From positions 1-28,127 of IMG/VR virus record IMGVR_UViG_3300006805_000120: 28,127 nt of DNA; one strand, given 5' to 3'. This DNA comes from a virus. The position numbers and the translations under genes were made by a program. The notes under the pieces were generated by a model that was not told the origin of the DNA, ran no database searches, and saw only the letters and a program-made list of their open reading frames with translations. Numbering within the stretch: position 1 is the stretch's first letter; every line of letters starts with the position of its first letter. Positions 4,126 to 25,207 of the stretch are shown one piece after another.

Positions 4126-5067
4126 ATGATTGAAGATTTAGAAAAGTCTCTAGAGAGCGAAATGAAAAATACGCCTCTAGACAAAGCAACTCCACCAAAA
4201 AGGGGTTCAAATAAAGATGAGATTAGAGAGGTAAGTGGATTTAAACCACTTACCGCAAAATCCGTCCCGTCTGAACTTATGTTCAACGACCCAGCAACGA
4301 CCATCAAGATCAGGTCTGCTAGTTTGGCCGAGGTAAAGTACTACTCGTCTATGGACGAAGAAGACCCAAACTCAATCGATGATGGTATCATGCACATCTT
4401 GAAAAGTTGCGTTAAAGTTGGCGGTGGAAACTACAAAGACCTTACCTTGACAGACAAACTACATGTTTTCTTTGCTGTAAGAGATTACACAATGATGAAC
4501 AATAGTAGTAAAAACGAGGTTATCATGGACTTTGTCAGCCAAAAAGATGGCGAAAGGATTAGTAAAAAAGTTGAGTCTTCTTTGTTCGAGCATTACGACA
4601 TCGATAAAAAACTCATGAAGTACTATGATGAAGCTGAGAGATGTTTCATAATCCCAATGTCTGACGATTCTTCTATAGAACCCATCAAGATTTTTGTTCC
4701 TAAAATCGGTGTTGTTGATGGCTTGAAAAAGTACATCCAAAAAAGACAATCCGAAAGACAAATGGACACCAGCGCATATGTGGATAAAAAGTTCGCAATA
4801 TACGCGCAATATCTTGTACCAGACTGGAGGTTGATGGACGATGATCACAAGTACCTCGATACTTTGAAAAAAGCATATGACGACTGGGATGCTGAGCGTC
4901 TACAAGTTTTTGATTATGCTGTCGGTCTTTTGAAGACTGGTATTAAACCTAGTGTATCAATTGCATTTGAAAACGGGGAGGTGGAGAGATTCCCCATGTC
5001 ATTTCGAGAGTATAAATCCTTATTTTTTGTTTCAGATAAACTTAGACTATTATTTCCAGTCGATTAA
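4126..5067 (+). CDS. Baseplate hub assembly / tail assembly chaperone, T4 gp26-like
   Basis: This 313-residue protein has a charged, disordered N-terminus (about 1-45) and then a segment at about 45-125 that follows the pattern of the T4 baseplate hub assembly family (gp26 type): SELMFNDPATTIKIRSAS, an acidic helix, an ILKSCV segment with a conserved Cys, and a TLTDKLHVFFAVRD segment. In T4 such proteins help build the baseplate hub and are not major virion parts. The Cys-rich zinc-binding knuckle of some relatives is not obvious. The frame ends at TAA 5065-5067, while a second frame one base ahead is open through the same region and runs on to 5293 (see the next entry). That layout recalls the tail assembly chaperone pairs of lambda, P2 and Mu. 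ATG 4126 is the only sensible start. Confidence 0.6.
   Translation: MIEDLEKSLESEMKNTPLDKATPPKRGSNKDEIREVSGFKPLTAKSVPSELMFNDPATTIKIRSASLAEVKYYSSMDEEDPNSIDDGIMHILKSCVKVGGGNYKDLTLTDKLHVFFAVRDYTMMNNSSKNEVIMDFVSQKDGERISKKVESSLFEHYDIDKKLMKYYDEAERCFIIPMSDDSSIEPIKIFVPKIGVVDGLKKYIQKRQSERQMDTSAYVDKKFAIYAQYLVPDWRLMDDDHKYLDTLKKAYDDWDAERLQVFDYAVGLLKTGIKPSVSIAFENGEVERFPMSFREYKSLFFVSDKLRLLFPVD
5023..5047 (+). promoter_or_regulatory. Candidate translational frameshift region
   Basis: Within the last codons of the hub assembly gene there is a run of six T (5023-5028, read as two TTT codons) and, further on, CTT AGA C (5041-5047). At the latter, a one-base forward slip of the CTT-decoding tRNA onto TTA would continue with GAC in the downstream frame. 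CTT-AGG-C is the known +1 site of yeast Ty1, which is similar but not identical. A -2 slip on the T run would reach the same frame, as in phage Mu. The site cannot be fixed from sequence alone. Confidence 0.3.
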
Positions 5068-5293
5068 CAGACTTTCTTTGGACAAGGGCATCCCACCCTT
5101 GTCCTTTGAGGAAATGCCATTCTATTGGTTCGAAGGATACCTAGGAGATTGGTTAGAGGAATTAAAGCAAAGGAAAAAAGAACAAGAAGAGTACGACTCC
5201 AAGAAGGGGGACAGCAACTTCATGTCAAAAGTAAGAAACTGGGGTTCTTTCGGCAAATACGGCAAAAGCCCCTCTCTAAAAGGTATGAAATGA
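5045..5293 (+). CDS. Downstream frame of hub chaperone, possible frameshift extension
   Basis: The frame one base ahead of 4126-5067 is open through the end of that gene and codes for a convincing segment: SINRLSLDKGIPPLSFEEMP, then YWFEGYLGDWLEELKQRKK and a charged tail ending SLKGMK. It could be made in two ways. One is a +1 or -2 frameshift before TAA 5065, giving a fusion of roughly 388 residues. The other is independent initiation at ATG 5114 (59 aa) or a TTG near 5027 or 5081. No Shine-Dalgarno sequence precedes these. Conserved-looking residues upstream of ATG 5114 favour a fusion or an upstream non-ATG start. The C-terminus overlaps the start of the nuclease gene by four bases (ATGA), so the two are translationally coupled. 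Confidence 0.5.
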   Translation, partial: DYYFQSINRLSLDKGIPPLSFEEMPFYWFEGYLGDWLEELKQRKKEQEEYDSKKGDSNFMSKVRNWGSFGKYGKSPSLKGMK

Positions 5294-5994
5294 TTATAGG
5301 TATAGATTATTCAATGAACTCTGTTGGAATAACAATTCTCGACGACGATAGAACAAGGTTTTTCTCTGTTATAGCGTCAACAGAACTGTCTTCAATGGCA
5401 GTGTTTGTTGAAAGCAAGGTTTCCCAAATAAAACAGGACGCTCTAGCAAGTTTAGATGGGTATACCATCATAGAAAAGAAAACGAACGTCTTCAACAAGA
5501 AAGCCAAAAACAGAATTTGCGAACTCACAAGATGGAGAAGACAAACCATGGTTGACAGCCAAAAGGTTTCTGATGCGGTGTTTGACTTAATATCACCATT
5601 TGTCAACGATAACACAACCATCTGTATAGAAAACTACAAGATCGGCTCTAATGGTGACCAAACTGTTCAGATAATAGAGTTTACAAAAGAATTTCTTTCG
5701 CATTTGGTTTCCACTGGGTTTCCGCCCGAAAACCTATATTGGGTTTCCGCACCAGAGGTTAAGATGTTTGCTGGTAGTGGCAACTTCACGAAAAAGAAAA
5801 TGGCCGAGGCGTTTCTTGATAAAAAGCCAGATCACAAAATGACCGATTTCATGATAAAAAACACAAAATCGGTGATAATTTCTGACAAAAACGTGTTAAA
5901 ACCGTGTGAAGATGTTGTCGATTCCTACTTTATAGCAAAAATACACGAGCAAAGAATCAAAGAAGGTTTATATGATCAAAGCACTCCTCAATAG
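5290..5994 (+). CDS. RuvC-fold Holliday junction resolvase-like nuclease
   Basis: The 234-residue protein begins MIIGIDYSMNSVGITILDDD, the first strand pair of the RNase H/RuvC fold with catalytic Asp6. A second acidic strand follows (TICIENYKIGS, Glu114), then a Lys-rich segment SGNFTKKKMAEAFLD, and a C-terminal helix with E-D-V-V-D-S (Asp208 and Asp211, the DxxD pair of RuvC). All four expected acidic metal-binding residues are therefore present. Such phage enzymes resolve branched DNA before or during packaging. Its substrate here is inferred. I chose ATG 5290 over longer in-frame starts because AAAGG lies six bases upstream, the RuvC strand starts at residue 2, and the upstream frame is Arg/Lys-rich and overlaps the previous gene. 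The end overlaps a convergent small gene by 38 bases. Confidence 0.75.
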   Translation: MIIGIDYSMNSVGITILDDDRTRFFSVIASTELSSMAVFVESKVSQIKQDALASLDGYTIIEKKTNVFNKKAKNRICELTRWRRQTMVDSQKVSDAVFDLISPFVNDNTTICIENYKIGSNGDQTVQIIEFTKEFLSHLVSTGFPPENLYWVSAPEVKMFAGSGNFTKKKMAEAFLDKKPDHKMTDFMIKNTKSVIISDKNVLKPCEDVVDSYFIAKIHEQRIKEGLYDQSTPQ

Positions 5995-7492: not shown

Positions 7493-7539
7493 CCTGAGAC
7501 CTGTAATTGGAAGCCTTGGTAATTGTTTTGGATTATTGG

Positions 7540-9147
7540 ATGAATACATATCATGCAGAGGGAATGACAAATAGATATAAACATAGAAAACAAAGCTTGA
7601 AACTTGGGTTTCTTGATTTCATGTACTCTCCTTTGTCTAATTATCTCCTTTCAGAAAGGAATGTGGAGCTTCATCTGGAAATATTCAAAAACATAACCAA
7701 AACTGAAAGGGAGAAAGCCTGTCTGTTTGTGCTGTTGATAGGCACAATATACAAAAACAAGATAATCCTAGACTACAAAAAGAATGAAGTTCGATCTAGA
7801 TTGTGTTCAACAATGGGCATCTCTAAGAGAACATACTACAGATATTTGTCTTTGTCAATGGAACTTGGTTTGACCCACATCGAAGGGGAAAATCTCAGGT
7901 TGAAATCTTTATCAAAATTTCTCGTTAACATAAATGATAAGCTGTCTACCTTTGAAGGTTCTAGACCTTTTTACATACGATCTAAAGAGGTTGCCACAAT
8001 AGATGTAAAATCGAGGAAATTTAAAGACTTCATGTTATACTGTAGGCTTTTGGCGGTTCAGTATGGAGAACACAAAAACATGCGGAATATTGCTAGGAAA
8101 ATAAAAAAATCCAAGCTGAAATATAACCTTGGTAATTCTTTAGAACCAATCCACATATTCCCCTTCCACATCTCAAAAAATTATCCGATCGGTGACGATT
8201 TTATAGGAACTAGGAACGCCGACAAGTTTAATGAGTTTTTTAAGTTCATGTATGCTAAAACAAGGGGCATAGAACCAGAAGACCTAGGGAGAAAAATGGT
8301 TGTGGAAAACCACCTGGGCAGATTCAGAGGTGCAGACAGGTTTATGGAACAAACGAATCTGAAAAAAGACCTTGTCATTGGTAGGAATGATGTAGGATAC
8401 CATAAAACAAGCAACAAAAACTTTAAAGATGTATTATTAGAGAGAGATAGGTTAAAAAGGAATACAACAAACACCATAGATGACGAATTTATAGATTTCG
8501 CACCGTCTTTCAAAGCCTTGTTTGGAGACATAGAGTCTTTGAGTATAACTTGTGGTGTAAACGAAGGCAAAACATTAAAGCTATCGGAGGGCTGGGGATC
8601 AAACACCAGAACTTTAAATAAAATGAATCTTGGGAAAATAAACAAAGGTGTCTTTTATATGGACACAGAATTGTTTTCCCGTTTTTCCAGTGCCAAAGTT
8701 TACACCCCAGAACAATACTACAAATATCTTTGTATGGACTTTAAAGCTGAATATAGGCTTGGGCTTTATGAAATATCTCAGATACTGGGATTGGATAAGA
8801 GTCAGGTCTCAAGGACTTTAAAGAAGTGTGTGGAGGCTGGTTTGTTAACTACAGAGGAAAGGTTCGTCTACCTTTCAACAGTACCGAAGGGAGAACCAAA
8901 AAAGTTCATAGCATCGTTGAAAAGAGAGTGGTCTATGCTAACCTCTGACGATGGTATTTCAAAGAACAGAACGGTTGATAGGGTCGTGTACAGACAGGGG
9001 TGTTTGATGTATCAGATAGAAACGGATAAACACTACAACACTGGTGCTGTTTTTTCAATGTCAGTTGAACAAAGGTCTTATTTTTCTAGAGAGTCAGAAC
9101 ACCTCAAGAACAACTACGACAAACTAAAACTGAAAATCTGTGCGTAG
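7540..9147 (+). CDS. DNA-binding protein with two helix-turn-helix domains
   Basis: The protein has about 535 residues and two separate HTH-like segments. The first is at about residues 82-122 (RSRLCSTMGISKRTYYRYLS followed by MELGL and a short beta wing). The second is at about 400-455 (YEISQILGLDKSQVSRTLKK, then CVEAGLLTTEE and a wing), the latter a good MarR-like winged helix. The region between is basic, with an acidic stretch near TNTIDDEFIDFAPSFKALFG. This layout suits a transcription regulator or a replication initiator. Starts are possible at TTG 7507, ATG 7540 and ATG 7564; none has a spaced Shine-Dalgarno sequence, and I took the first ATG. It opens a rightward unit after the parS-like region and overlaps the gp4-like gene by 8 bases if that gene uses GTG 9140. 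Confidence 0.65.
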   Translation: MNTYHAEGMTNRYKHRKQSLKLGFLDFMYSPLSNYLLSERNVELHLEIFKNITKTEREKACLFVLLIGTIYKNKIILDYKKNEVRSRLCSTMGISKRTYYRYLSLSMELGLTHIEGENLRLKSLSKFLVNINDKLSTFEGSRPFYIRSKEVATIDVKSRKFKDFMLYCRLLAVQYGEHKNMRNIARKIKKSKLKYNLGNSLEPIHIFPFHISKNYPIGDDFIGTRNADKFNEFFKFMYAKTRGIEPEDLGRKMVVENHLGRFRGADRFMEQTNLKKDLVIGRNDVGYHKTSNKNFKDVLLERDRLKRNTTNTIDDEFIDFAPSFKALFGDIESLSITCGVNEGKTLKLSEGWGSNTRTLNKMNLGKINKGVFYMDTELFSRFSSAKVYTPEQYYKYLCMDFKAEYRLGLYEISQILGLDKSQVSRTLKKCVEAGLLTTEERFVYLSTVPKGEPKKFIASLKREWSMLTSDDGISKNRTVDRVVYRQGCLMYQIETDKHYNTGAVFSMSVEQRSYFSRESEHLKNNYDKLKLKICA

Positions 9148-9685
9148 TAAGAAGAAGCCGTTCACTGGGATGAAGAACATGATGCCTAGGAAAAACAGCA
9201 TGTTCAAAGAGGGCTTTTTTAGACCGAAAAATCCAGATAAGTACTATGGTGATCTAAACAGAATCATCTATAGGAGCAGTTTGGAACTGGCCTTTTATGA
9301 AGAATGTGATAGAGACAAGTCTGTTGTGAAGTGGTCGGTAGAACCACCGTGGCTTGAAATAAAATACCTGTCACCAAAAGATGGGAAAATGCACAGATAC
9401 TTTCCAGATGTGTATTGTGAAAAGATTGTTGAAGGGACTCTGAAAAGATTTATTGTCGAGGTTAAACCCAAATCTAAGACAATTGCTCCGAAAAAACCGA
9501 ACCTAACTTTGTGTAAAACAGAGAAAGAACTCATACGAGTAAAGAGAAGGTATGAAATCTCTCTAATCTCCTACAAGATCATAATGGCGAAAAAACAATA
9601 CGCAGAGGAGTTTGCAAAGGTCAGAAACCTGACATACATTTTCCTGACAGAAAGATATATTAAACGCCTAAGCCTCCGAAAGTAA
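9140..9685 (+). CDS. 4: Head completion nuclease, T4 gp4-like
   Basis: The 181-residue protein matches the T4 gp4 head-completion family. The N-terminal pattern FRPKNPDKYYGDLNRIIYRS is characteristic, followed by LELAFYEECD, VVKWSVEPPWLEIKYLSPKD, the HRYFPD strand and FIVEVKPKSKT. The latter parts form a PD-(D/E)xK nuclease core: Glu49, Asp90, Glu107 and Lys109, the fold also shared with TnsA. In T4 this protein is needed to finish DNA-filled heads before tails attach. Length is slightly above T4 gp4 owing to a basic N-terminus. The GTG at 9140 overlaps the HTH gene; ATG 9170 (171 aa) is an alternative start and cannot be excluded. The 3' end overlaps the convergent tail fibre gene by 26 bases. 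Confidence 0.85.
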   Translation: MRSKKKPFTGMKNMMPRKNSMFKEGFFRPKNPDKYYGDLNRIIYRSSLELAFYEECDRDKSVVKWSVEPPWLEIKYLSPKDGKMHRYFPDVYCEKIVEGTLKRFIVEVKPKSKTIAPKKPNLTLCKTEKELIRVKRRYEISLISYKIIMAKKQYAEEFAKVRNLTYIFLTERYIKRLSLRK

Positions 9686-18962: not shown

Positions 18963-21164
18963 TTACTCTTCGTTTCCGTCTTTTGGAGTTTCAACCTCCA
19001 TGGCAAACAAACCTCCATCCTCGTCTTTAGCTACCTCGATCGTGTCACCAAATTCGTCGGTTGCCTCACCAAGAGGTATCAAAGAATCAACATCAACAGA
19101 ATTTTGAGCCACTTCGTCAGATTCCTCCATGATCTTGTCCAAATCTTCTGATTCTACCATTTCGATCGCGTCAGCTTCAGAAACCGATTCTTTCAACCTT
19201 CTGATAGAAATGATCTTCCTAGATTCTGTTAAAGCAACAGTTTCTTTTAAAAGGCTGTCTATTTCATCGAAGGCAACATGTTTTTCACCGTTTTCCTCGG
19301 ACGATAACTTGAAGCCGTTTTCATCTATGTCTTCAACCTTCCAAGAGTTACCGTCTTTGTCTTCAACAGTTCCACCAAGTTCGGCCTGATCACTTTCTTT
19401 TAGGTGTTTGTTCTTTCCAAAACCAATTCTGAAAACTTCACCAATAACCTTTGAGTATCCTTTTTGGTCTAAAACTTTTTTGCCATCTTGAGACAAATAA
19501 CCAAGTTCAATAGCAACTCGGTCTGAAACTCTGTTCAAGACACCCTGAGGTTTTCCGTTCTTGATTTCGTTATCAGCCCACCTGTCAGTGTCTGGTGTCA
19601 AAGTTCTAAACGTTTTTGACAATTCTCCTTCTTCAAGTTTTTGATTGCAAAGTTCGTCATATCGATCGTTGCTCTCGAAAATGATTCCCTCCTCTTCTAA
19701 CATTTTTGATGGTTCTACCCATTTAAGGTCTTGGTGTTCTTCACTGATTCTCACCTCTTGACCCTCTGGTAGAGTTGCTTTGAAGTAATGTGAAGTTGAA
19801 CCATCTGGATTTTGGTATTCTCCAGCTTTTGACACCGAATCAACCTCAACACCAGTTTCTTCTTTCAATTCTCTTATAGCAGCATCTTCTGGGGTCTCGC
19901 CTTCTTCGAGTTTTCCTCCAGCAAAGCCCAATTTTGACGGTTCTAAGTCGTCTTCATTGGTTCTCTTCAACAACAAAACCTGTCCATCTGCGTTCTCCAA
20001 GATCACATCGGCGTATTCTTTGGTTTGAACAGCATCATCAGATTCTTTCATTCTTTCCACCAAGACAGCCCTACCACCATTTTGCATATAGTCTTTCACA
20101 AATTTCTTTGCTTCGTCTCTCTTGATGTCATTTAAGTAAAAATCATCGAAAGAAGTGTTTGGCGTCGAGGAGTGTGAGAAATCCATGCCAGCGGTTTTAA
20201 GCGCATCGTTGAACTTTTTGGACTCATCTTTTGGTACACGAACTTTTTCAGCACTTTCTGTAAGTACCTCGTCAACAGCTTTATCAAATTCAGACTCGAT
20301 CACCGTGTCTAACTCCTCTGTGTTGGCGTTGTACACACCAGCCAAATCGCCGTTTGATTCTTTTAAGATGAACAAACCTTTCCTAGTGGGAGAAGCAGTC
20401 ATTTTCCTAGACTCTACCAACTTAGCCACTTTGTCGTTTGTGACGTCTGTTGTCCTCTCCATACCATCTGGAGTGTCTATGGAGAAAAATGGTGAAACCA
20501 AAGCCTCCAGAACCGCAGATGTCTCTGCTGGAATTTCTTCGTCAGACTCAGACAAAATTGTGTTTACAGCTTCTGTTAATCGCCTTTTGCTACCTGTTGG
20601 GAAATGGCTTTCAACAAGTTCGTAGTTCTCTGGCGACAATTCAGACACCATTTCAGCCAATGGCATTTTGTCTAATGGCAAGCAATCTGGATTTTCCGTT
20701 TCCTCTTCCAACAAATAAGACAGATCGCCGTTCTCTAAACCGTTTTTGATGAGACTCAACACACCATTTTTGTTTGCTAACTCGGATGAACCGCTGTGGG
20801 CTTCAACAGATACAACAACACCATTAACCGTGTTTTGTCCATCTTTCAACACCTTTACAGAAATAACACCACCATCATTGTAGAACAACGACAATTCTTT
20901 TCTATTTTTTCCTTTTGTAAGGTTCAAGGCATCCTCTAAATCAGCCAATTCTAACACTGTGCCTTTTTTGAGGTTCAAAGAAGAAATATCGTAGTCTTCT
21001 TTAAGTTCGATCTGGTTATCAGTACAAAACTGTTCGACCATGATTTCAGTCTCTGGGGAATTTTCTTCAGAGTCAGGAACACCCGCGAATGCCTCTACGA
21101 ATTTATCAATTAACTGTTCGTTGTCTCCAATAGACTCCTGTAGCTTTAATAACTTGCTTTTCAT
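18963..21164 (-). CDS. Putative capsid-targeted protein with embedded Nudix hydrolase domain
   Basis: The 733-residue protein begins MKSKLLKLQESIGDNE, with L-Q-E at residues 8-10 like its neighbours. Residues of about 381-498 form a Nudix domain. The Nudix box at 417-439 is complete (G-x5-E-x7-R-E-L-x-E-E-x-G-V, seen as GKLEEGE and RELKEETGV), preceded by a strand with VLLLKRTNEDD and followed by HQDLKWVEPSKM. Nudix enzymes cleave nucleoside diphosphates linked to another group, such as ADP-ribose, NAD or dNTPs; the substrate here is unknown. The flanks are acidic and carry many possible prohead protease sites (RRLTEAV, LVESRK, LTESRK, RRLKESV). The ATG at 21164 is chosen over a TTG two codons upstream because it gives the conserved N-terminus; it lies two bases after the previous stop. 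Confidence 0.75.
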   Translation of the reverse strand: MKSKLLKLQESIGDNEQLIDKFVEAFAGVPDSEENSPETEIMVEQFCTDNQIELKEDYDISSLNLKKGTVLELADLEDALNLTKGKNRKELSLFYNDGGVISVKVLKDGQNTVNGVVVSVEAHSGSSELANKNGVLSLIKNGLENGDLSYLLEEETENPDCLPLDKMPLAEMVSELSPENYELVESHFPTGSKRRLTEAVNTILSESDEEIPAETSAVLEALVSPFFSIDTPDGMERTTDVTNDKVAKLVESRKMTASPTRKGLFILKESNGDLAGVYNANTEELDTVIESEFDKAVDEVLTESAEKVRVPKDESKKFNDALKTAGMDFSHSSTPNTSFDDFYLNDIKRDEAKKFVKDYMQNGGRAVLVERMKESDDAVQTKEYADVILENADGQVLLLKRTNEDDLEPSKLGFAGGKLEEGETPEDAAIRELKEETGVEVDSVSKAGEYQNPDGSTSHYFKATLPEGQEVRISEEHQDLKWVEPSKMLEEEGIIFESNDRYDELCNQKLEEGELSKTFRTLTPDTDRWADNEIKNGKPQGVLNRVSDRVAIELGYLSQDGKKVLDQKGYSKVIGEVFRIGFGKNKHLKESDQAELGGTVEDKDGNSWKVEDIDENGFKLSSEENGEKHVAFDEIDSLLKETVALTESRKIISIRRLKESVSEADAIEMVESEDLDKIMEESDEVAQNSVDVDSLIPLGEATDEFGDTIEVAKDEDGGLFAMEVETPKDGNEE

Positions 21165-21166
21165 GA

Positions 21167-21910
21167 TCAAACTTTCAATTTTATTATTTTATACCCATTA
21201 GAACCGACGGCACACATGGCCAAACTGTTACCACATTCTGTTAGACTAAAAGACTTTTTCTGAGCCTCAACAATAGCCTCAACACCAACTTCGGCAATAG
21301 CCTCGCTTTGCGGAACTTCTTCTGTTTCTTTTAAGTAATTTCCAGACAAAACTCTGTAAACGGATGAATTTTTGTCTTTTAGTTGTTTTTTTATGATTTC
21401 CCTTTGAGAAGGGTTGTAATCTCTGTGTTTGTTTGGTTGAGCCAACTGCATCAACAACAATACCTCATCGTTCGACAAGACCTTGTCTGCTAGGTTGTCT
21501 GTATCAACCGCCTCGAATATGGGAACTAAATTTGGATTTTCCGAAACCAAGTATTCCATCCCACCTTTTAGGACTTGTTCTTCTGATTCGTTTTCGATGA
21601 TGATCTTGATATCGTCATCTTGAGTGTCAAGTTTCGCGCTGGTGCACAAAATTCGACAAAGATCGTTCATCCATTTGGAGAACAACTCCCCCTCCATGGC
21701 TGGTTTATAGTCTGGTACAAAAGAATTTATGATACCAACACCTCTCTCTGGAGTCAAACCCATGCAAGCTTCAAGATGTTTAAAGATTGGTTCATCCTCT
21801 TCCCTCAATATATCTTTTTCACAGTAATACTTGGAAACTGGGTCTACAACGTTCATCATAACTGTTGCATCACCAAAACTCTCTTTAAGTCTAGATAGCT
21901 TCGATCTCAT
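21167..21910 (-). CDS. Putative capsid-targeted internal head protein, 247 aa
   Basis: The protein begins MRSKLSRLKESFGDAT, with L-K-E at residues 8-10, nearly identical in form to the start of the Nudix protein encoded next (both continue with S, then a GD pair). A mostly helical body of unknown family follows, with several Cys and a region LSNDEVLLLMQLAQPNKHRD. The C-terminal quarter contains closely spaced possible protease sites (EAIAEVGVEAIVEAQKKSFS, then LTEC) before a short hydrophobic end (GYKIIKLKV). This suggests a precursor cut at both ends. It starts 26 bases after the previous gene, with an AT-rich TATATA-containing leader and no Shine-Dalgarno sequence. Internal head protein is inferred from the N-terminus. 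Confidence 0.6.
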   Translation of the reverse strand: MRSKLSRLKESFGDATVMMNVVDPVSKYYCEKDILREEDEPIFKHLEACMGLTPERGVGIINSFVPDYKPAMEGELFSKWMNDLCRILCTSAKLDTQDDDIKIIIENESEEQVLKGGMEYLVSENPNLVPIFEAVDTDNLADKVLSNDEVLLLMQLAQPNKHRDYNPSQREIIKKQLKDKNSSVYRVLSGNYLKETEEVPQSEAIAEVGVEAIVEAQKKSFSLTECGNSLAMCAVGSNGYKIIKLKV

Positions 21911-22857: not shown

Positions 22858-22865
22858 TATTTATC
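22858..22865 (-). promoter_or_regulatory. T4-type late promoter octamer upstream of head-protein genes
   Basis: On the minus strand this reads GATAAATA, identical to the octamer at 11497-11504. It lies about 13 bases before ATG 22845, in the short gap after the WYL gene. It would start a transcript running through 21937-17278 to the terminator at 17231-17264. Confidence 0.35.
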
Positions 22866-23434
22866 TAGAAATTTATCTTAGGGTTTTCTCCTTTGGGGAA
22901 TTTAGAGTGTGGTAACGACGCAAGGATAATACCAAGCTGTTTGTCGTTTGGGTTGTACAATTTTCTATATTGAGAGAACTTCTTTCCCATGTTAGTCCAA
23001 GCCTCGATTCTATCCAACCTGAACAACCTCCACCTTCTCTTTTTGTCTGAGACAGAAACAGATTTGTGTTTTGAGAATTTTCCTTTGATCGTGGAGTCTT
23101 TCTCCGAGTTCATTATGACAAACGCCCTAAGATATATCTTGTCTTTTTTAATGACTATGCCACCGCTGTTTAAACCTTTGCCGACAGCATACGGCTCTAT
23201 GAGCCTGTGTCCTTTTTTGCCTTTCCTGTGTCTGTAATATATCGACACATAGTTTCTGTTTTCAACCGCCTTTATCAATTCGGCCAGTCTTGGTTGTCTT
23301 TCATTCAACCTGTTTCTGGCTTCCGTCAAGGGCATAAAATCCCTCGTGATTATCGATTCTTCTTCATCACTCAAAAGGATGTCCCTTTTGTTGGGGACTC
23401 TATAGTTAAAAGGTATGAACGTGGCAAAACCCAT
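22865..23434 (-). CDS. WYL-domain protein, 189 aa
   Basis: Residues of about 55-145 follow the WYL domain pattern: an entry helix and strand (LIKAVENRNYVSIYYRHRKG), HRLIEPYAVGKG, KIYLRAFVI, and the final WRLFRLDRIEAW. WYL domains bind nucleic acid ends or small ligands and usually sit in bacterial transcription regulators with an HTH domain. Here there is no HTH. The N-terminal 54 residues instead hold MPLTEARNRLNERQPRLAEL, in which L-T-E (36-38) could be a prohead protease site. The C-terminus is basic. It starts directly before the stop of the upstream gene's frame (TAG-ATG junction), and the next gene holds the head-region proteins. A virion or packaging role is possible; a free regulator is equally possible. 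Confidence 0.65.
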   Translation of the reverse strand: MGFATFIPFNYRVPNKRDILLSDEEESIITRDFMPLTEARNRLNERQPRLAELIKAVENRNYVSIYYRHRKGKKGHRLIEPYAVGKGLNSGGIVIKKDKIYLRAFVIMNSEKDSTIKGKFSKHKSVSVSDKKRRWRLFRLDRIEAWTNMGKKFSQYRKLYNPNDKQLGIILASLPHSKFPKGENPKINF

Positions 23435-24031
23435 CTACTTTTTTATACTTAACCCTTTTGATAGGTATATTGTATGATATCCACCGAATGGAGAATAACC
23501 ATAACCAACGGAAAACTTGTTCTTGGTTGTAAAAGATAATAATCCACCAAGAGATTGATAGTCTTTTGAATACCCACCAAAAACGCCAAACGAAATGTAC
23601 GGCCTAGGCGGTTTTATATATGTGGTGTTTGTGTGTTTTACAGAGATGTTGTGGCTTTTCCAGAAGATTTCGTTTTTCCACACGCTATCCATCAAGACCA
23701 ATCTGTACGTGCTGTCCCCCAACGTGTCTGAATAATACCGCTTTTTGAAGTAGTCGTCTGCAACATATGCCAGTTGTTTCCCATTTACAGCTTTTAAAAC
23801 GCTATCAACAAACCTTTGATCTAGTGTGTTTGTGTCTATGTATGCTACTTCTGTCAGCCAGTTCGTTCTGATCTCTGACTCTTTCTCGGGGACATATCTT
23901 ACACTGTCTTTTGTGTAATAATTTTTAACGCTGTTTCTTATTACGTCGTTGCTTTTGGAATTGCCTCTGCTCAACCAGCCGAATATGAAGAACACACAGG
24001 CTGTTAACAGCATTTGAAAGAAAGGTTTCAT
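23435..24031 (-). CDS. Membrane-anchored protein, spanin-like candidate
   Basis: The 198-residue protein has one N-terminal hydrophobic segment (MLLTACVFFIFGWLS), a charged extended middle with repeated Asp-Thr/Asp-Ser and Tyr (KDSVRYVPEKE, YYSDTLGDSTYRLVLMDSVW), and a C-terminal Gly/Tyr-rich part of alternating residues (PYISFGVFGGYS, NKFSVGYGYSPFGGYHTIYL) that looks like short outer-membrane strands. From memory this order resembles the DUF6808-type proteins common in Bacteroidota phages, often found near lysis genes. A single anchor plus an outer-membrane-like end would suit a one-component spanin that links both membranes during lysis. This is inference. It overlaps the patatin gene by four bases (ATGA), and its gene is part of the cassette 25595-23435. 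Confidence 0.5.
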   Translation of the reverse strand: MKPFFQMLLTACVFFIFGWLSRGNSKSNDVIRNSVKNYYTKDSVRYVPEKESEIRTNWLTEVAYIDTNTLDQRFVDSVLKAVNGKQLAYVADDYFKKRYYSDTLGDSTYRLVLMDSVWKNEIFWKSHNISVKHTNTTYIKPPRPYISFGVFGGYSKDYQSLGGLLSFTTKNKFSVGYGYSPFGGYHTIYLSKGLSIKK

Positions 24032-24978
24032 GATTTTATGTTTTTTAAGGTTTCGGCTATTTGGTCTAACTGTTCGGATACATCTTTTGATAAGACATAT
24101 CTATACGCGTCTTCGCTAAGTTTTTTCAGGTTCTCAGGACTCGCATCATCTATGTCGGTACTCGCGTTGATCAAGTCCCCGTTTAATCTATGAAAGACTA
24201 AGTCGACATTGGTTGATTCCGCTATCGTCTCCATATAGTACGTAGTCATCGCAGAATTTTGCTGCAAAAACACGTTTGGAAGTCTAGTGACCCATTGGAT
24301 AGCACCCCACAATACATGCTTCTTGCTCAATTTGTGGGCTTTGTTTCCAGTACCTATGGATACAACAAAGTATGAATCTGATTTTTCTTTCCTCACCATC
24401 TCAGATAAAACCACCATCGACGGGTTGTTTTCTGCCAAACCACCATCTATGTCGATTCTATCGTTTGTTGTGTCGGCTGGGAAATATGTTGGTGCAGAAG
24501 CAGATTTGCCACATATGTCCCTCAGCAACATGTTTTTGTGTTCCTCTTTGGTGCTCTTGAAAACGGTGTATTCTGTACAATCGCTTGTCTTGATGCTCAC
24601 GGCCAACATCTTCGATTTGGTTTCACCTAGCTTCATATCACCAAGGAAATCTTTCAAGGCTTTGTCTAAGGCTTCTCTTTTGTACTTTGGCCTAAACAAG
24701 CCCATTTTCCTCCACCACCTTTTTCTGAAGATGTCTTCTCCTCTTTGGGCGTAGATTTCTAGTGCTTTAGAACAGGTAACCATCCCTGAGCCTATGCAAG
24801 CCCCAGAAATTATACCAGTCGAAACGCCGCCGATGTAGTCAAAATAATGATGTAATGGTTCAGGAAGTCTCTTTTCGAGTTCTCTGAGTATGATGAGTTG
24901 GTAATAACCTTTTCCTCCTCCACCACACAAGGCCAAGCCAGTAACTGCCTTACCCCTGATCTTCTGGATTTCTTTCAT
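24028..24978 (-). CDS. Patatin-like phospholipase
   Basis: The 316-residue protein has every hallmark of the patatin family of lipid acyl hydrolases: the oxyanion loop CGGGGKGYYQ (residues 18-27), the nucleophile elbow GVSTG with Ser53, the conserved SASAPTYFPA segment, and the catalytic DGG with Asp178 of the Ser-Asp dyad. It would cleave phospholipid acyl chains. There is no signal peptide. I chose ATG 24978; a TTG 12 codons upstream would add a basic stretch overlapping the holin-like gene further. It still overlaps that gene by 29 bases and the spanin-like gene by four, so all are translated together. This suggests a part in lysis. Other possibilities are a toxin, or an enzyme related to the CapV effectors of CBASS. 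Confidence 0.88.
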   Translation of the reverse strand: MKEIQKIRGKAVTGLALCGGGGKGYYQLIILRELEKRLPEPLHHYFDYIGGVSTGIISGACIGSGMVTCSKALEIYAQRGEDIFRKRWWRKMGLFRPKYKREALDKALKDFLGDMKLGETKSKMLAVSIKTSDCTEYTVFKSTKEEHKNMLLRDICGKSASAPTYFPADTTNDRIDIDGGLAENNPSMVVLSEMVRKEKSDSYFVVSIGTGNKAHKLSKKHVLWGAIQWVTRLPNVFLQQNSAMTTYYMETIAESTNVDLVFHRLNGDLINASTDIDDASPENLKKLSEDAYRYVLSKDVSEQLDQIAETLKNIKS

Positions 24979-25207
24979 TGCTTTCGTGTTTTTTCTGTAA
25001 AACTTTACCACCAAAACCGATCGTCAATGCTCCAAGAATTAATTCTGTGTGAATGGTGTGATCTTTTACAAATATTGCAACAGTCACCTCAACAGTTCCC
25101 CACAATAGTGAAACGAATATCGTCACAGCAGAACCAAACCTAATAAAAGATTTGACTCCGTTTGACTCCTTCAAGTAAGCCCCGATTGCATTAAGCATCC
25201 TTCCCAT
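24950..25207 (-). CDS. Holin-like small membrane protein, 85 aa
   Basis: The protein has a short amphipathic N-terminus (MGRMLNAIGAYLKESNGVKS), a first hydrophobic segment (FGSAVTIFVSLLWGTVEVTV) and a second (TELILGALTIGFGGKVLQKK), then a charged tail. Two membrane segments, small size and the GKVLQK motif right after the second segment are features of many phage holins, including those of Bacteroidota phages, as far as I recall. A holin would make the inner membrane permeable at the end of infection. It overlaps its upstream neighbour by 17 bases and the patatin gene by 29. No endolysin is visible in this window, so the assignment rests on topology and position. Confidence 0.5.
   Translation of the reverse strand: MGRMLNAIGAYLKESNGVKSFIRFGSAVTIFVSLLWGTVEVTVAIFVKDHTIHTELILGALTIGFGGKVLQKKHESNERNPEDQG

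Follow-up and report, generated by a model that had tools for sequence, protein, structure and literature searches.

The question raised by this locus is whether one phage gene, ORF1, yields a single protein that ends at its own stop codon or also a second, longer protein, made by ribosomes that change frame before they reach that stop. The window considered here is the whole 28,127-nucleotide stretch that makes up IMG/VR virus record IMGVR_UViG_3300006805_000120, and all positions refer to it (Table 1). A first-pass annotation, made from the letters alone, had described ORF1 as a hub chaperone gene overlapping a second frame and had suggested a programmed frameshift between the two. Based on comparison with distant relatives, we propose that +1 programmed frameshifting at a UUU_C site gives rise to short and long forms of the chaperone, helped by an upstream hairpin carrying a GGAG motif, a reading to which we assign a probability of about 0.88.

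Table 1. Coordinates of the features at and next to the proposed frameshift locus
Feature	Position	Strand	Remarks
ORF1, short form, 313 aa	4126..5067	+	Stop TAA at 5065-5067; predicted T4 gp26/gp51-family tail/baseplate-hub assembly chaperone
Predicted hairpin GGGGAG-GTGGAGAGA-TTCCCC	4975..4995	+	GGAG at 4977-4980 and 4983-4986; 6 nt before the slip codon
Putative shift site UCA_UUU_CGA	4999..5007	+	Proposed +1 slip of Phe-tRNA from UUU (5002-5004) to UUC (5003-5005)
Frame-2 extension	5006..5293	+	40-43% identity to frame 2 of L104 and MaF61; predicted long form join(4126..5004,5006..5293), 388 aa
Putative dual-coding stretch, frame 0 (short form) and +1 (long form)	5006..5067	+	Judged from synonymous o/e in the homologous huge-phage stretch
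RuvC-like resolvase, next gene	5290..5994	+	phrog_159, E = 1.1e-9

Identity of ORF1

Searches with tblastn using ORF1 recovered relatives in Flavobacterium phage MaF61, the Prevotella Lak phages, uncultured phages of 460-735 kb and Sphingomonas phage PAU (gp93), and the LR756500 and PAU proteins used as queries added Chryseobacterium MA9V-1/2 and Tenacibaculum PTm1, PTm5 and pT24. IMG/VR searched with the window ORF1 alone gave no matches, and alignment A1 was without any sufficiently conserved stretch. Two of these relatives, LR756500 (28.8 bits) and PAU (33.3 bits), pass the cut-off of 24.5 bits of the Pfam family PF12322 (T4_baseplate), which holds both T4 gp26 and gp51, the two being listed as hub assembly chaperones (PMC3004832). 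The window ORF1 gave no match to PF12322, and its closest relative, MaF61, is also below the gathering score. The structure predicted for the fused product (mean pLDDT 69, pTM 0.47), compared with BFVD using Foldseek, matched T4-like baseplate hub subunit and assembly proteins with E-values down to 5e-6, a likeness that places the fold with the baseplate hub and hub assembly proteins, as well as PAU gp93-type and PTm1-type proteins. In light of the family membership of its relatives and these structural matches, which bear out the first-pass label, ORF1 is predicted to be a tail/baseplate-hub assembly chaperone of the PF12322 (T4 gp26/gp51) family. In PAU, MA9V-2 and pT24 the chaperone gene follows the tail sheath after a few genes; in the window, which is a fragment, no tape measure was recognized.

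A conserved second frame

The frame one base ahead of ORF1 is open from 4934 to a TGA at 5291-5293, which gives the two open frames an overlap of 134 nt, and the ATG of the resolvase gene overlaps the stop of the extension (ATGA). The earlier description of this frame as open through the end of ORF1 to 5293 without an ATG before 5114 is thus accurate, and relatives support its being coding; its placing of the start of the overlap at 4952 needs correction, as 4952 is merely the first GTG. Codon shuffling gives p = 0.064 for a +1 tail as open as that within ORF1, and an extension of 74 codons past ORF1 would arise by chance with a probability of about 0.007. As the layout alone is only mildly improbable, it is comparison with relatives that decides whether the arrangement is real.

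Read from the Phe at 5003, the window frame 2 is 43% identical to that of MaF61 (E = 7e-18) and 40% identical to that of IMG/VR contig L104 (E = 2e-17), each value being from a single comparison. More broadly, a conserved extension lies in the +1 frame relative to ORF1 in all 14 divergent phage lineages, which take in MaF61, PAU, Lak, the 460-735 kb phages and the Tenacibaculum and Chryseobacterium phages. The first-pass annotation had named lack of the overlap in relatives as grounds for abandoning a frameshift, and the overlap is present in every relative examined. The locus has the overlapping second ORF, the kept phase and the protein-level selection of a G/GT-type gene. In Lak (L002/L003) and LR756501 (L005) the FSLFQ motif is not encoded in the overlap and the extension motif follows the ORF1 stop, a layout that would fit the insertion of a ~20-aa linker.

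Transcriptional slippage, or an indel representing a sequencing error or a pseudogene, could also join or break the frames, with the T6 run at 5023-5028 as a conceivable place for it. However, this run is not conserved, and the same layout and phase recur, both frames being under selection, in isolate genomes and in dozens of assemblies made independently. As MaF61, PAU, MA9V-1/2 and PTm1 are complete isolate genomes, sequencing error cannot explain the arrangement in general, and we regard slippage or an indel as a highly improbable account that is already largely refuted. The two-frame +1 arrangement is, on comparative grounds, confirmed as real and conserved.

The onset of dual coding and the probable slip site

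The strongest evidence on the point at which the second frame is entered comes from the synonymous variation computed codon by codon for 56 distinct genes of the LR745206 group of huge phages. It is normal through the codon before a particular TTT; from this TTT onward, as far as the ORF1 stop, hardly any is left, the observed/expected ratio being about 0-0.1 (0.04-0.14 as means over short windows of codons) against 0.77 for the whole gene; the codons TTT, CCC, AAC and GGA are each invariant in 56 of 56 genes. Past the ORF1 stop, frame 2 of the huge-phage set has a pN/pS of 0.13 with a pS of 0.80, compared with a pS of 0.06 in the overlap, and is under protein-level selection. The vanishing of synonymous variation at TTT therefore marks the onset of double coding at that codon; to the extent that sequence comparison can show it, both dual coding and the position of its onset are shown.

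This TTT corresponds to a UUU_C at 5002-5005 of the window. Of the 14 lineages, 11 have UUU_C where the alignment shows this invariant Phe, as do 83/83 members of the LR745206/LR756501 huge-phage group. The codon that follows differs between lineages: TTT CGA is found in all four window-like lineages (the window, MaF61, L021 and L104), TTT CCC in the LR745206 group, LR756501, PAU and pT24, TTT CAA in Lak and LR756500, and TTT CCT in L017 and L020. CGA accounts for 21 of the 288 Arg codons of the window (7%), and CCC for 0.9% of the Pro codons in huge-phage genes, yet it is invariant after TTT. Furthermore, LR756500 (L004), LR756501 (L005), L023, L025-L028 and L073 have a frame-2 stop one codon before UUU_C, and therefore entry into frame 2 must be at or after TTTC. 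UUU_C thus provides the conserved slippery site within the overlap that a G/GT-type frameshift requires, and comparing the overlap among related phages, which the first-pass annotation had recommended as a way of finding such sites, leads to it.

The aligned UUU_C and the GGAG discussed below are both absent from three lineages, namely LR756504 (L010), MA9V (L011/L012) and PTm1/5 (L013/L014). PTm1/5 have a UUU_C (TTT CAA) 15-18 nt earlier than the aligned place, and these three lineages may shift at another site or by other means.

The two slip sites suggested earlier fare less well. The CTT-AGA-C at 5041-5047, offered for a +1 slip, is not conserved and has the conserved UUU_C 39 nt upstream of it, and the T run at 5023-5028, offered for a -2 slip, is likewise not conserved across lineages. 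Both belong to a wider set of places where the shift might instead occur, which includes UUU_CCA at 5053, where the window overlap has a second in-frame TTTC, and the ORF1 stop itself, used in the manner of prfB, some relatives having CTT TAA, ATT TAA or TTT TAA at the end of ORF1. All of these candidates are within the overlap, but none is conserved across lineages, and the dual-coding constraint in huge phages starts upstream of every one, at the codon aligned with 5002. A shift elsewhere appears improbable. Two variants were rejected outright: a -2 slip at UUU/CGA, for which re-pairing is impossible, and a prfB-like slip at the ORF1 stop, as CTT TAA or ATT TAA occurs in some relatives and not in the window or others and the constraint starts earlier.

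Frame 2 might also encode a separate small protein, started inside or directly after ORF1 by translational coupling or internal initiation. Existing annotations treat the frame-2 product as a separate hypothetical protein or give it a downstream start (PAU gp94, MaF61 ORF156, MA9V2_060 and PTm1 ORF-023), ORF156 being started from an overlapping ATG; most huge phages have a frame-2 ATG ATG at about -29/-26 from the ORF1 stop, and a GGAG lies upstream. Frame-2 ATGs fall inside the overlap of MaF61, L021 and most huge phages, where initiation may to some degree be internal. However, the overlap has no such ATG in the window, LR756500 or L104; the frame-2 constraint in huge phages begins at UUU_C, 34 nt upstream of the first such ATG; no conserved start codon follows the GGAG at -22 with a spacing suited to initiation; and a start at 5114 would cost ~36 conserved residues. 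We accordingly rate a separate protein as improbable. Programmed frameshifting of a T4-type hub/tail assembly chaperone, as the first-pass annotation had envisaged it, is by contrast strongly supported by the conserved +1 overlap and the apparent onset of dual coding.

A predicted upstream hairpin with GGAG in or near its loop

In the huge phages a second frozen block, NNG TGY GGT GAG GAG RTC CNC, precedes the slip codon, with freely variable codons between the block and TTT. It folds as GTGTGG-TGAGGAGGT-CCACAC, 10 nt before TTT, and its stem shows GTGCGG/CCGCAC compensations (U-A to C-G) with G-U intermediates. Across 46 sequences, 98.6% of the cells are paired and four cells are changed on both sides, a result reached in 1 of 500 shuffles. 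Four more divergent sequences have unrelated stems (CGGAAAC/GTTTCCG, ATTGCGAT/GTCGTAGT and ACTGTGAC/GTCGCAGT) that carry the loops GAGGAG, GGGGAG or GCGGAG 10-11 nt before TTT; here 96.4% is paired, three of seven pairs are changed on both sides, and covariation reaches 0.81, slid versions giving 0.29 at most. GGAG lies at exactly -22 in 12 of the 17 listed sequences and between -27 and -19 in the others, with 0.04 expected per 20 nt. The base of the hairpin is 10-13 nt from the slip codon in most relatives; PAU and LR756500 have short 4-bp stems only.

The window hairpin has a predicted energy of -9.0 kcal/mol, which places it among the most stable 2.9% of the 36-nt windows of ORF1 (synonymous-shuffle p = 0.037), and by dinucleotide shuffling it is not exceptional, with a z of only -0.96. 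Its GGAG copies are at -25 and -19, not -22. Covariation makes the upstream element well supported in the huge phages and in L104, L021, L017 and L020; in the window it is only suggestive, given this z value and the shift of GGAG from -22.

An upstream refolding hairpin that mimics an internal Shine-Dalgarno is known to stimulate +1 frameshifting on 70S ribosomes (PMC6321510), although the hairpins of the relatives are farther from the slip codon than the E-site-adjacent ones tested in that work, and the GGAG in their loops is a second candidate for the stimulating part. The frozen GGAG and hairpin might instead serve another purpose, such as codon choice for Gly-Glu-Glu-Val or regulation of ORF1 translation: in several lineages the block is within zinc-ribbon codons, and the first Glu codon of the pair varies while the second is always GAG. 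Against this, the element keeps its distance from UUU_C even where the stem sequences are unrelated, and GGAG is missing at that place from the three lineages that have no aligned UUU_C. Such another purpose seems unlikely, if still worth bearing in mind.

A model for the production of two chaperone forms

In the frameshifting model that we favor, most ribosomes would stop at 5065-5067 and release the 313-aa chaperone, with a role like that of T4 gp26 or lambda gpG. With Phe-tRNA on the UUU at 5002-5004 and the slow CGA as the next codon, a fraction of ribosomes would slip +1 onto UUC. UUU_C would permit clean re-pairing of this tRNA from UUU to UUC, and the rarity of the next codon (CGA in the window, CCC in the huge phages) is consistent with a slow A site. 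The hairpin, with its Shine-Dalgarno-like GGAG directly behind the ribosome, would stimulate the slip, and slipped ribosomes would read the +1 frame to 5293, producing a 388-aa form with a new C-terminal domain and a role like that of T4 gp51 or lambda gpGT. We infer the slip itself, its +1 rather than -2 direction, its efficiency, the action of the hairpin and the role of both forms as tape-measure chaperones.

Other genes of the window

Between the chaperone and resolvase genes and the head-closure gene lies a gene for a 546-aa protein with two weak helix-turn-helix regions (7507-9147, +). The head-closure protein itself (phrog_218; 9140-9685, +) also matches the TnsA-like endonuclease N-terminal domain PF08722. 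On the opposite strand, among structural-looking genes, 18963-21170 (-) codes for a 735-aa protein with a NUDIX domain (PF00293, E = 6e-21), through which it also partially matches a portal-type PHROG. A WYL-domain protein (PF13280, E = 2e-9) is encoded at 22865-23434 (-) and a patatin-like phospholipase (PF01734, E = 4e-24) at 24028-25014 (-).

Relationship to T4 gp26/gp51 and other frameshifting systems

Using PF12322 and profile searches on whole records, we found that each of six T4-type genomes has two family genes, the short 26 and the long 51, in agreement with the first-pass remark that T4 uses separate genes. Among 11 frameshift-type genomes, nine (MaF61, Lak, LR756500, LR756501, PAU, LR756504, MA9V-2, PTm1 and pT24) have a single PF12322 gene and thus depart from the T4-style pair; the window itself is a fragment. 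A distant second family copy accompanies the frameshifting gene in LR745206.1 (262722-263372, +) and LR756502.1 (266052-266576, -). The ORF ends of T4 gp26 and gp51, when inspected, had no conserved extension in another frame. A review states that long-tailed phages “except T4” conserve G-T frameshifting (PMC5009743), and according to a paper citing Vladimirov, Gautam and Davidson 2022, some T4-like phages have a short gene and a fused long gene, gp26 and gp51 being the short and long tail assembly chaperones (PMC10885494). T4 and the phages described here thus share the family PF12322, but T4 encodes the two forms in a short gene and a fused long one, with no frameshift, whereas these phages mostly have one frameshifting gene. 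The alignment of the fused profile with gp51 extends as far as residue 240, but weakly (E = 0.0039, probability 8.6%), and the isolated frame-2 profile had no significant hhalign match to the gp51 C-terminus; homology of the frame-2 domain to the gp51 C-terminal tail, prompted by a by-eye likeness of FTFYQI and FSLFQI, is therefore a conjecture only.

PF12322 genes of very distant phages, up to 735 kb in size, appear to keep a frameshift that goes +1 and has an unusual element upstream, and hence the T4 exception looks like a lineage-specific change. If correct, this supplies a defined +1 recoding signal for bacterial ribosomes and a long protein missed by the annotations of PAU, MaF61, MA9V, PTm1 and pT24. 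We see about even chances that UUU_C together with an upstream refolding hairpin bearing a GGAG loop at a fixed -22 constitutes a new class of bacterial +1 element, common to Bacteroidota, Lak and other huge phages, in which case the single frameshifting PF12322 gene would be an alternative, perhaps ancestral, to the T4 26/51 pair.

One mechanistic parallel is prfB, the release factor 2 gene, where the +1 frameshift occurs at CUU followed by a stop codon, with a Shine-Dalgarno a few bases upstream. Both systems would use a +1 slip of the P-site tRNA and an upstream Shine-Dalgarno-like stimulator, but here the next codon is a sense codon and the GGAG is in a hairpin at ~-22. With lambda G/GT, the locus would share the making of a short form and, by frameshifting at a low level, a long form from one gene with overlapping frames, as well as a chaperone that is not expected in the virion (PMC5009743); unlike lambda, which slips -1, the proposed slip is +1 at UUU_C, in another family (PF12322), with an upstream rather than a downstream element. 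Programmed +1 shifts in structural or assembly genes of tailed viruses are known from the capsid and tail genes of Listeria phage PSA and from archaeal virus HSTV-2, PSA slipping on a proline codon and the genes and signals differing from those here (PMC5009743). The influenza A PA-X site, UCC_UUU_CGU, for which we draw on a reference in PMC5009743, is nearly identical to UCA_UUU_CGA of the window and shifts in the same +1 direction. PA-X involves eukaryotic ribosomes and an unrelated gene. To our knowledge, no stimulator has been described for it. The literature searched, in which Vladimirov et al. 2022 is represented by the citing paper only, contained no report of this frameshift in Lak phages or PAU. 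We read the T4-family chaperone with its predicted +1 frameshift as adding a variant to known chaperone frameshifting, and its RNA element may represent a +1 stimulator of a new type.
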